Origin: a virus
Length of the DNA stretch: 31,918 nt
IMG/VR virus record: IMGVR_UViG_3300027754_000289
Span: 1 to 31,918 of that record
Strand: one strand, 5' to 3'
Positions 78 through 5,304 of the stretch are shown piece by piece (within the stretch, counting starts at the first letter, position 1; each line of letters begins with the position of its first letter). Made by a program: the position numbers and the translations under genes. Below the pieces are notes generated by a model. The model saw nothing but the letters and a program-made list of their open reading frames with translations. It was not told the DNA's origin and searched no databases.

Positions 78-818
78 TCAAGGGCAACCCGCTTTCACCC
101 AATCTTCTCGGCACTTGTAGCCCATCACCTTGTAGGTGGGCGGTGAGTAGCAACTATTCCGGTGGTTATCATTCATTGGCTGATTCCCTTTCTTGGTTGT
201 GGTTTGATTCCTTCGCTGACAATTTCTAGCGCAAGCTCTCCAATCCTTAACAGGGGTCTTGCCCCCAATCTTCCATCCGTTGCTTTCGTAGTAATCAAAA
301 GCCGACTCTGCATCAGTTGTCCCCCATCCGATTTCCTTTGCATATGCAGACCAATCAGAGCGAGTGGGGCGTAAGCCCTCTCTTACTATCTTACTCTTAT
401 TGTAACTCTTATTCTGTACGATGGATGGTTCATCTTTGGCTGATAGATGGGTCATAGATGGCTCATCTATGGTGCATCTATGGTTCATCCTTGAGGCATA
501 GCCCTCTGCCTTTTGGTTCATCTTCACCAGTCCTTTCTCGATGCCAGAGTGATAGATAGCTCCGTCTTTTCGGGTGAAAACACCAGCGGTTTCTAGTTCA
601 GCGAGGAGCTTGGTCGCATCCTCCCCTACCATTCTACCGATCTGTTCCGTGGTCGGGGTGATTCCGTTGATGACTAGCCGCCCCCCCTCGTTGGCTTTGT
701 AGGCTAGGCAGAGCAAGTGAATCCACAAACCCTTCGCACCAAGGCTCACCAAGGCTAGCTTCTCATTCGATAGCCAGCGGTTAGGCTCAAAGGCAAACCA
801 GAAATTATCTCTCTTCAT
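78..818 (-). CDS. Phage replication initiator / replisome-organizer-like protein
   Basis: This 246-residue protein has an N-terminal half resembling the winged-helix start of phage replication proteins (about residues 1-100, with a WLSNEKLALVSLGAKGLW stretch). Its C-terminal part around residues 165-205 carries the DYYESNGWKIGG...VKDWRACARN signature common at the ends of phage O/DnaD-like replisome organizers. Such proteins bind origin repeats and recruit host helicase. The ATG overlaps the previous stop as ATGA (815-818). The middle of the gene holds a DNA repeat array that is out of phase with codons, which supports an origin-in-initiator design like lambda O. No helicase or helicase loader is recognisable nearby. 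The family is inferred from motifs only. Confidence 0.6.
   Translation of the reverse strand: MKRDNFWFAFEPNRWLSNEKLALVSLGAKGLWIHLLCLAYKANEGGRLVINGITPTTEQIGRMVGEDATKLLAELETAGVFTRKDGAIYHSGIEKGLVKMNQKAEGYASRMNHRCTIDEPSMTHLSAKDEPSIVQNKSYNKSKIVREGLRPTRSDWSAYAKEIGWGTTDAESAFDYYESNGWKIGGKTPVKDWRACARNCQRRNQTTTKKGNQPMNDNHRNSCYSPPTYKVMGYKCREDWVKAGCP
379..415. other. AT-rich repeat next to the iterons, candidate DNA unwinding element
   Basis: Directly downstream of the 11-bp repeats in the minus-strand sense lies a purine/pyrimidine-biased AT-rich stretch. It contains two copies of ACTCTTATT (393-401 and 405-413) at a 12-base period, with a weaker third unit near 381-389. An AT-rich repeated segment beside iterons is the usual arrangement for the melting region of lambda-type and bacterial origins. 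Function is inferred from position and composition only. Confidence 0.45.
424..489. repeat. Tandem 11-bp repeats, candidate replication iterons
   Basis: Six contiguous 11-bp units lie end to end. On the + strand they are GATGGTTCATC (424), TTTGGCTGATA (435, degenerate), GATGGGTCATA (446), GATGGCTCATC (457), TATGGTGCATC (468) and TATGGTTCATC (479). The consensus is (G/T)ATGGNTCATC. Because 11 is not a multiple of three, successive units are translated in different frames, so the conservation is at DNA rather than protein level. The period is close to one helical turn, as expected for repeated binding of one protein on one face. They lie inside the likely initiator gene, as lambda iterons lie inside gene O. 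Confidence 0.65.
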
Positions 819-1366: not shown

Positions 1367-1583
1367 TGGGTGCGAGCCTCCTTATGGCCAGCACGATATC
1401 GTTGAGTATGTCCTTTATCACTTGGTCTTCCGTGCCGTCTGCTATCTGTTGAACTAGCTCGGCACATCGACTCCGTTCATTGGCCTCTGCCAACCTCAAG
1501 CCCTCCCGCAGAATTGCGGAAAGGTCGGGGAGGAGAGTTGCCCCTATTGATAATGTTTTTGGAACCTCAGAATGGAATTGCAT
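1356..1583 (-). CDS. Hypothetical protein (75 aa)
   Basis: This 75-residue protein begins MQFHSEVPKTLSIGATLLPD. Its second half is acidic and helical (LREGLRLAEANERSRCAELV, then a DQVIKDILNDIV segment). Its start lies 17 bases inside the end of the putative annealing-protein gene and its stop overlaps the next gene. It is probably a small accessory protein of the DNA-metabolism operon; no family is recognised. Confidence 0.55.
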   Translation of the reverse strand: MQFHSEVPKTLSIGATLLPDLSAILREGLRLAEANERSRCAELVQQIADGTEDQVIKDILNDIVLAIRRLAPNVD

Positions 1584-2370
1584 CTTTTTTATCCTCTTCT
1601 GCCAATATCTCGCTAATGATTTGGTTTCGGATTAGGTCGTTCGTGTATGGCTTTCCGTCTGCGGCGGGTTTCAATTCTTGCTTCAACAACCAATCGAGAT
1701 AGTCCAATCCTTTACCGCTGGGGAACTTAGCTATCTCTCGGAGACTCGAACCCTTGTGCTTGCCGAACTTCAATACCATGTCCCGCTTTTCTGTAGCGGG
1801 TGATTGCTCGCTCACCAACTGAGCCGTGATCTCGGCCACTTCTGCTTTCGTTATCTTGGCGGGAGGTGCTTCGTTCTTGTGGGTGTTCAGCGGTTCGTTA
1901 TCGAACCCGCCGTGAGGAACTTCCTCTGCCGGAGTCGTGCTTAGGTTGCGGTCAATCAGAACTACAATATGAGCAAAGGCAGAGCGGCAGGCCCGACTGA
2001 TTGCCCTCGTCTGCACCATAGCTCTCCGTGCATAGACCGGACGCTTGCTCCACATATCCTCGTCATCCCCCAAGAACCCTTCGGCTTGAGAAATCACTTG
2101 GCCTGTGTCCATTCGCTTCACCTCACCGATACACCGATAGCCGTCCTCAACACGCTCAACATCTCGGGCAGAGGCCACGCATCCGTGAGCGATGGCGATT
2201 GATTGCCAGCCCTCAACTCGGACATATCGCTTTACCCCGATCTGTTGTGCAGTTGCGTTTACGATCTCCCTGCATACGCTAGCCACATCCGTAGCCTGTC
2301 GCATATAGTTAAGCACTCCGTTGGAGTGGCCTAACCCTTGGTCATTCTTTACAATCATCTGTTCATTCAT
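1567..2370 (-). CDS. Putative phage recombination (annealing-type) protein with C-terminal DUF3820-like domain
   Basis: The protein has 267 residues. Residues about 40-145 resemble a phage family of ERF/Rad52-like single-strand annealing candidates: a GVKRYVRVEGWQSIA stretch, then YARRAMVQTRAISRACR. The latter matches the helix ending such domains, where QTRA...ALR-type motifs are common. Residues about 200-235 (VLKFGKHKGSSLREIAK then LDYLDWLLKQ) match the short FGKxKG...YLxWLL module known as DUF3820, also found at the end of exonuclease-X-like proteins. A nuclease gene lies two genes upstream, so a recombination pair is plausible. An AAGGAAC ribosome-binding sequence lies upstream of the ATG. 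Annealing activity is inferred and not certain. Confidence 0.5.
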   Translation of the reverse strand: MNEQMIVKNDQGLGHSNGVLNYMRQATDVASVCREIVNATAQQIGVKRYVRVEGWQSIAIAHGCVASARDVERVEDGYRCIGEVKRMDTGQVISQAEGFLGDDEDMWSKRPVYARRAMVQTRAISRACRSAFAHIVVLIDRNLSTTPAEEVPHGGFDNEPLNTHKNEAPPAKITKAEVAEITAQLVSEQSPATEKRDMVLKFGKHKGSSLREIAKFPSGKGLDYLDWLLKQELKPAADGKPYTNDLIRNQIISEILAEEDKKDAIPF

Positions 2371-4228: not shown

Positions 4229-4561
4229 TTATCTTGACGATTGTTTGTAACTCTTTGATGCTGGGGGCTTTATAGGAGGGGAAATAAGGCGAAAGTATGG
4301 GGTTTTGCGGAGATATTTTTGCCTTGGCCCACATCGTAGTGACTCGTTGTGCTTCTTTCGTTGAGCGCAAATAGTTCCCTTGAACTTTTTCATTTCCGCT
4401 TTGCCAGCCCGAACCATCTGCGAAATAATTCTCGAAGTTGTGGTGGGTGTGCGGTTAAAAAGTTTTGCTATTTGTTTTGTTGTGAGCCAACCCGGAGGGA
4501 TTTCTTCTTCATCCCTTTTCAAAATATGATCGGCAAGTGCCTTGACCCACTCGCTACTCAT
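4229..4561 (-). CDS. Winged-helix/HTH DNA-binding protein
   Basis: From the ATG at 4561, which overlaps the phosphoesterase stop as TGATG, the protein has 110 residues. Residues about 22-55 (PPGWLTTKQIAKLFNRTPTT then TSRIISQMVRAGKAEMKKF) form a clear helix-turn-helix followed by a wing-like segment. The basic C-terminal tail is rich in Lys, Arg and Pro. The gene sits directly before the gap with the promoter-like pair, so it could be the regulator of the DNA-metabolism genes or of its own operon. An upstream in-frame extension exists but overlays the phosphoesterase gene and was not used. Confidence 0.65.
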   Translation of the reverse strand: MSSEWVKALADHILKRDEEEIPPGWLTTKQIAKLFNRTPTTTSRIISQMVRAGKAEMKKFKGTICAQRKKHNESLRCGPRQKYLRKTPYFRLISPPIKPPASKSYKQSSR

Positions 4562-5304
4562 CAGAATGTCTTCATGTTGGTAGGCACGATGAACTTTCCG
4601 TTGCGCTCCTTGGCTTGAAACACATCGTGGCCATGTTCGTGAATCAATCCGAAAGCCCAACCATGTTGCCAGCGCAGTCTCCGCATCTGGCCTCTCGTAT
4701 ATGATGGGGTCTTGTTGGAACAGCATCCGATATTGTAAGCCTCTCGGCTATCGAGGCTCACGCTTTTGAAATAGTCGATGGCGTGGGTGTGACCGAACAG
4801 AACCGCCCCTGCTCCGTAAGCATCGGCGTGTTGTTTCGCTCCATGCATCGAAGCTCCGTAGCCGTGAACGAATGTAAGCGAGCCGTTCTTGTAAACTCCC
4901 GCTGTTGAATCGTAGGGATACATCTTCCCTCTCGTCTCCTTCATTATGGTTTCGATATTGTTGCACCCATCCAGAGCGTAGTCCCTCGCCACTCCGCTCC
5001 TTACATTCGTGGACATATCAAAGATGCGTTCATCGTGATTGCCTCTTAGGAATATCCTCTCCTGTCCAAACTTAAAGAACGCCCTCATAAATTCCTCGCC
5101 CTCATCCCAATCCCTTTGAAGCGAAGAGGCTTGGTCGGTATCGTCTGCCCCTCGGCGTATCGCTCGAAAATCCCAGTTGTCTCCTATGTTTACCACGAGG
5201 TCGGGCTTATAGTCTGCACAAAAAGCAAGCAGAGCCTTGATCGTAGTCGGGTCTTGCTCATCGCCGTGCACATCGCCGGCGGCCACGAACTTTATTGGCT
5301 TCAC
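4561..5304 (-). CDS. Calcineurin-like metallophosphoesterase
   Basis: The 247-residue protein shows the full metallophosphoesterase motif series: GDVHGDE near the start (DxH), NIGDNWD (GDxxD), LRGNHDER (GNHD), FVHGYG and FGHTHAID (GHxH). These residues bind two metal ions and hydrolyse phosphoesters. Phage members can act on DNA ends, cyclic nucleotides or other signals; the substrate here is not evident. The start is GTG at 5304, overlapping the previous stop as GTGA, and the gene is coupled to the downstream HTH gene. Length is typical of single-domain members. Confidence 0.85.
   Translation of the reverse strand: MKPIKFVAAGDVHGDEQDPTTIKALLAFCADYKPDLVVNIGDNWDFRAIRRGADDTDQASSLQRDWDEGEEFMRAFFKFGQERIFLRGNHDERIFDMSTNVRSGVARDYALDGCNNIETIMKETRGKMYPYDSTAGVYKNGSLTFVHGYGASMHGAKQHADAYGAGAVLFGHTHAIDYFKSVSLDSREAYNIGCCSNKTPSYTRGQMRRLRWQHGWAFGLIHEHGHDVFQAKERNGKFIVPTNMKTF

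Follow-up and report, generated by a model that had tools for sequence, protein, structure and literature searches.

An array of 11-bp iterons and an adjoining AT-rich stretch lie inside the initiator gene of an uncultivated tailed phage, and this region is very probably a replication origin built into that gene, for which we propose steps of binding, opening and helicase recruitment. The window, i.e. the whole stretch of DNA analysed, is the entire 31,918-bp record of the phage. The initiator gene (78..818, minus strand; 246 aa) was identified through homologues and through fold matches to phage replisome organisers and replication initiator proteins, and the terminase genes are located at the opposite end of the window. 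The first-pass annotation had interpreted the region as a putative lambda-type origin, a reading which, at the level of sequence, gains support from the 11-bp arrays of homologues and from cassette exchange among relatives.

An iteron array and a weak duplex inside the initiator gene

Tandem-repeat and recoding tests define six contiguous 11-bp iterons with the consensus [G/T]AT(G/C)nnCCAT[A/C] at 424..489 (minus strand). In gene order, the units span 479-489, 468-478, 457-467, 446-456, 435-445 and 424-434, and on the coding strand they read GATGAACCATA, GATGCACCATA, GATGAGCCATC, TATGACCCATC, TATCAGCCAAA and GATGAACCATC. The two tandem arrays that TRF scores highest in the window have period 11 (425-489, 5.9 copies) and period 22 (424-489), and the best tandem score for all periods from 8 to 30 across the whole window falls exactly on position 424 with period 11. 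The two-unit pattern ATNNNCCANNNATNNNCCA occurs five times in the window, always inside the array, against a chance expectation of 0.09; in a 38-kb relative with a 98% identical initiator, it occurs once, at the same gene position. Neither the window nor this relative's genome contains a second copy of the iteron array, and a second origin as in SPP1 was rejected on that ground.

Individual units fit the consensus at 7-11 of 11 positions, and A2, T3, C7 and A9 are invariant in 19 distinct units from seven related genes; the core ATG-N3-CAT forms a loose dyad. An extra copy of the repeat core (repeat family D3; 514..524, minus strand) is found eight units upstream in the gene, in register with the copy at 426. 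It is a possible outlying iteron, but may also be coincidental coding sequence. The limits of the array are thus uncertain, and it may extend further in degenerate form.

Since 11 is not a multiple of three, consecutive units are read in three frames. The period-11 self-match at 424-489 amounts to 40 of 55, compared with a mean of 25.8 for synonymous recodings drawn at phage-wide codon usage, none of which reached the observed value in 20,000 trials. Periods 10, 12 and 13 in the same interval show no excess over this null. By lag, the recoding P values are 5e-5 (11), 1.5e-4 (22) and 0.014 (33); lag 33, the only one that a peptide repeat would favour, thus has the weakest excess. Likewise, permutation of the gene's own synonymous codons never attained the observed period-11 score (0/2000), while a stricter null with codon usage taken from the window gene, array included, gave P = 0.01, partly because the array itself feeds into that usage. 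Direct reading of one relative, L014, revealed two additional units (22 bp) and the loss of one base at the array edge, by which the frame is kept.

Next to the iterons, an AT-rich stretch that is purine-biased on the coding strand (379..423, minus strand) constitutes a probable DNA unwinding element. Its AT content is 69%, compared with 50% for the gene, and positions 378-417 form the weakest 40-bp duplex of the gene, within the top 0.2% for instability genome-wide. The 9-mer ACTCTTATT (given for the plus strand; the feature lies on the minus strand) occurs twice, at 393-401 and 405-413, 12 bp apart from start to start; in relatives, this repeat family (D15) belongs to an array of period 6/12. 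Altogether, the features first described from the letters are borne out, namely six end-to-end 11-bp units within the gene, a non-triplet period that reflects conservation of DNA rather than protein, and AT-rich DNA with two 9-mers 12 bases apart; that iterons are followed by AT-rich DNA as in lambda O also holds against the annotated lambda iterons.

Domains of the encoded protein and its genomic setting

The N-terminal domain (codons 1-100; 519..818, minus strand) is a predicted winged helix and presumably binds the iterons, as suggested by its AlphaFold model (pLDDT about 90, winged-helix appearance), by viral fold matches and by its exchange together with the iterons. Most of the iterons and the AT-rich array are encoded within residues 119-147, where pLDDT drops below 50; this stretch is thus predicted to be a disordered protein linker, and its length varies among homologues. 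The conserved C-terminal domain (78..374, minus strand), which includes P151 and the motif DYYESNGWK.GGK..VKDW.AC.RN recognised from invariant alignment columns, is modelled confidently as helical and is presumed to recruit a helicase or loader. The window protein carries the invariant P, D-Y-Y-E-S-N-G-W, W and R of this motif.

This C domain characterises a wide family in which the N domain varies: a full PF09681 N domain is present in L052 and a DUF6291 N domain in L073, both joined to the DYYESNGW...KDW C domain. The viral fold matches of the window protein comprise replisome organisers, Lin1244/Lin1753-like, DUF1376 and DUF6291 proteins and replication initiator proteins, and some of the replisome organisers (with PF09681, Lin1244/Lin1753-like, DUF1376 or DUF6291 N domains) share this C domain. 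PF09681 (Phage_rep_org_N) aligns to the window N domain with E 0.037 and 14.4 bits, below its gathering threshold of 23.3. Sequence and fold searches of the PDB returned no significant match, with no fold match at E 0.001; the best fold matches are winged-helix proteins including the Rep initiators 5kbj and 4pt7, at a non-significant E of 0.31-0.35. RepA_N (PF06970) gave no match at E 1, and the window protein has no Pfam or PHROG match to the lambda O family. No gene for DnaB_C or a DnaC/IstB-type loader was found in the window and eight relatives (9 records). Distant relatives of the initiator gene adjoin DnaB-like helicase or primase genes.

As to the surrounding genes, window positions 1567-2370 encode a protein of unknown function (phrog_19042) with an ExoX-like C-terminal match below cut-off, possibly a recombination protein adjoining the replication gene, and 4561-5304 encode a calcineurin-like metallophosphoesterase that may be an exonuclease of phage DNA repair. 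In the 37,973-bp relative (record G001; L085, L086), a Mom-like DNA modification protein (PHROG 1384, E 1.3e-50) is encoded a few genes downstream of the initiator (L085:1935-2612); the window record ends short of the matching region. An identical sequence of 12-13 bases at both ends of G001 suggests that this assembly is circular, though classed as linear. A DNA search against annotated phage genomes yielded 0 matches, and bacterial genomes searched for a host matched only at the level of the C domain or as distant relatives. The relatives include the lake-water phage Pam1, and we regard the group as aquatic, judging solely by relatives such as Pam1 and not by the contigs' sample records.

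Repeat periods and cassette exchange among relatives

Phages with the same C domain carry 11-bp arrays at the same gene position with differing repeat sequences. The linkers of homologues keep period 11, and the repeats are clade-specific (CAAGATGCTCC, GTCACGCCGAT, TGTCCAGCAAA, GTAACGCAAAT, AGAAACGCAAA and GGGTATCCAAA). Hence, the alignment of homologues that had been put forward as a check shows the 11-bp period to persist while repeat sequence and amino acids change. That the period is kept while the sequence varies freely suggests a constraint on helical phasing more than on sequence.

We surveyed periods in 76 non-redundant genes, comprising 75 of the same C-domain class or relatives of it, and lambda O as a control. 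Significant periods were 11 in 16 genes, 22 in 8, 10 in 9 and 20 in 9; periods 7 and 14 were found in 14 and 7 genes, and periods 8, 13, 16, 17, 19 and 26 in 0-1 genes each. The excess thus clusters at helical-turn values, plus 7/14. Some of the 10/20 signals occur along with 15 and 25 and probably reflect 5-bp arrays of the AT-rich part, and multiples of three (12, 15 and 18) that also occur may arise at the protein level. In the lambda O control, the same scan finds period 20 in the annotated iterons, at codon 112. The period-11 signal is weak in the short-array genes L013, L015 and L017 and in the relative L027 (P 0.02-0.06), as well as in the short-array relative L016 (z 2.1). Four genes with the same C domain (L131, L139, L160 and L052) have arrays of 5/10/15/20 bp near codons 128-163 in place of 11-bp arrays.

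The relatives fall into two N-domain types, I and II, about 37% identical in protein, and the repeat type tracks the N-domain type, not the genome backbone. In window-type relatives, the AT-rich stretch is an array of AGTAAT/AACAAT hexamers, with period 12/18 detected in L003, L012 and L017. In type II relatives (L019-L047), 4-5 copies of the heptamers AGAAGCT/AGAGGTT directly follow the 11-bp iterons at gene nt ~366-400, and their period 7 is as significant as the iterons. Like 11, 7 is no codon multiple, so that the array does not stem from a simple codon-level repeat; it is possibly a sequence-specific unwinding or loading element. A DnaA-trio-like element in the AT-rich array, considered by eye for relatives with TAATAG repeats, was set aside because the strand orientation did not match.

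In phage pairs with 77-89% identical flanks, all DNA similarity vanishes at the start codon, stays lost until the AT-rich array ends and returns in the C domain. For instance, L015 (type I) and L026 (type II) show 88.7% DNA identity ahead of the start codon, cannot be aligned over the next ~409 nt and show 86.5% identity from the C domain onward, with 37% protein identity between their N domains and 99% between their C domains. A similar gap over N domain and arrays is seen in L013/L020, L016/L030, L012/L027, L012/L040 and L014/L022; in the swapped pairs, protein identity is 32-39% for N domains and 81-99% for C domains. Across all 364 cross-type pairs, DNA identity is 0.56 in the N domain, against an aligner random level of 0.53, and 0.74 in the C domain. 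Five changes of N type fall on the C-domain tree, and at least three of these changes are forced by strong branches. N domain, iterons and unwinding array thus travel as one cassette, with at least three and probably five exchanges, while the C domain stays put. If these iterons are read by the N domain, one would expect iterons and AT-rich array to go with it, as they do in the genes compared. Cassette exchange thereby provides evidence, independent of motif spotting, that the array DNA is matched to the encoded N domain.

A putative origin: mechanism, alternatives and precedents

We thus propose that the N-terminal winged-helix domain would bind the 11-bp iterons at 424-489. As the iterons are one helix turn apart, bound molecules would line up on a single face of the DNA. 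The resulting initiator-iteron complex would open the neighbouring AT-rich array (about 378-423), and the conserved C-terminal domain would recruit the host replicative helicase, the host being invoked because no DnaB_C or DnaC/IstB-type gene was found in the window and eight relatives. We likewise infer origin activity and a direction of replication. The switch in cumulative GC skew that had been anticipated did not appear: the skew is monotonic both in the window and in the 38-kb relative, falling steadily in the latter. It is uninformative here, since almost every gene is on the same strand.

Binding sites within a gene could block transcription, and by themselves they do not prove an origin. 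The iterons might be mainly an autoregulatory operator at which the bound protein acts as a roadblock to its own synthesis, with replication starting elsewhere. We consider this unlikely: the window and the 38-kb relative have no second copy of the array, the iterons are in every case accompanied by a neighbouring short-period array, AT-rich or purine-rich, which is swapped along with them and which an operator would not need, and the lambda, SPP1 and pSK41 origins share the layout. Autoregulation could nevertheless be served by the iterons along with, or in place of, initiation.

Two further explanations would deprive the DNA period of a role of its own. The protein does contain an 11-residue similarity (DEPSMTHLSAK DEPSI), and synonymous recoding retains part of the periodicity (mean 25.8 of 55), as would be the case if a peptide repeat in a low-complexity linker produced the DNA period as a by-product. 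Yet the excess over the recoding null is greater at lags 11 and 22 than at lag 33, clades devoid of such a peptide repeat still keep the 11-bp period, and the linker is predicted to be disordered and is variable in length, which makes this account very improbable. Still less credible is a functionless repeat due to chance or replication slippage; short arrays can arise that way and the units match their consensus imperfectly (7-11 of 11), but position and period are the same in several sequence-unrelated arrays, the array scores best in the whole genome, and it is exchanged together with the N domain.

An origin embedded in its initiator gene is of a kind already known from lambda O/ori, SPP1 gene 38/oriL and pSK41 RepA_N with the pPR9 swap. 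Iterons inside the CDS and an AT-rich region directly 3' of them, the architecture of a lambda-type origin, are both present in the window. In the O/ori of lambdoid phages (lambda, Stx phages), mid-gene iterons of varying number precede an AT-rich region, and two extra iterons in Stx O add 13 aa (PMC7466680); these phages, as the window, have no phage DnaB, and they use the host helicase (PMC7466680). In contrast to the contiguous 11-bp units described here, lambda iterons are 18 bp long at 20-24 bp spacing; moreover, we found no sequence-family relation between lambda O and the window protein and identified no lambda-P-like loader in the window phage. The putative window origin thus resembles that of lambda in its layout, but its initiator lies outside the lambda O family. 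In SPP1, direct repeats and an AT-rich unwinding element lie within gene 38, which encodes the origin-binding protein G38P (oriL; PMC6316719); SPP1 differs in having a second origin as well as a helicase and a loader of its own; none of these were found here.

The plasmid pSK41 offers a further parallel: the winged-helix N domain of its RepA_N protein binds repeats in the centre of its own gene, and protein provided in trans can do without the ori-encoded central linker, which stands next to a separate conserved C domain (PMC5703833). In pPR9, about 500 bp of N domain and ori were naturally replaced by a phage-like counterpart (PMC5703833). Unlike RepA_N plasmids, the window protein has no detectable Pfam RepA_N domain and its C domain belongs to a different family, and unlike in pPR9, the swap recurs within one phage group. 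What is new is an aquatic-phage family with iterons of one helical turn.

In summary, our analysis locates an inferred origin and the likely binding site of its initiator in an uncultivated aquatic phage group. We tentatively go further, to a reading that is possible rather than probable: N domain, contiguous one-turn 11-bp iterons and a second array, of short period (6 bp or 7 bp, by type), may form a self-contained specificity cassette, repeatedly exchanged in a large C-domain class, in which the second array would be a sequence-specific single-strand-loading element and not merely AT-rich DNA. If this is true, cassette exchange would let co-infecting relatives escape cross-recognition of their origins. 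Natural phage pairs that differ in the roughly 410-bp cassette of N domain and origin, with closely similar flanks, provide a handle on initiator-origin specificity and its exchange.
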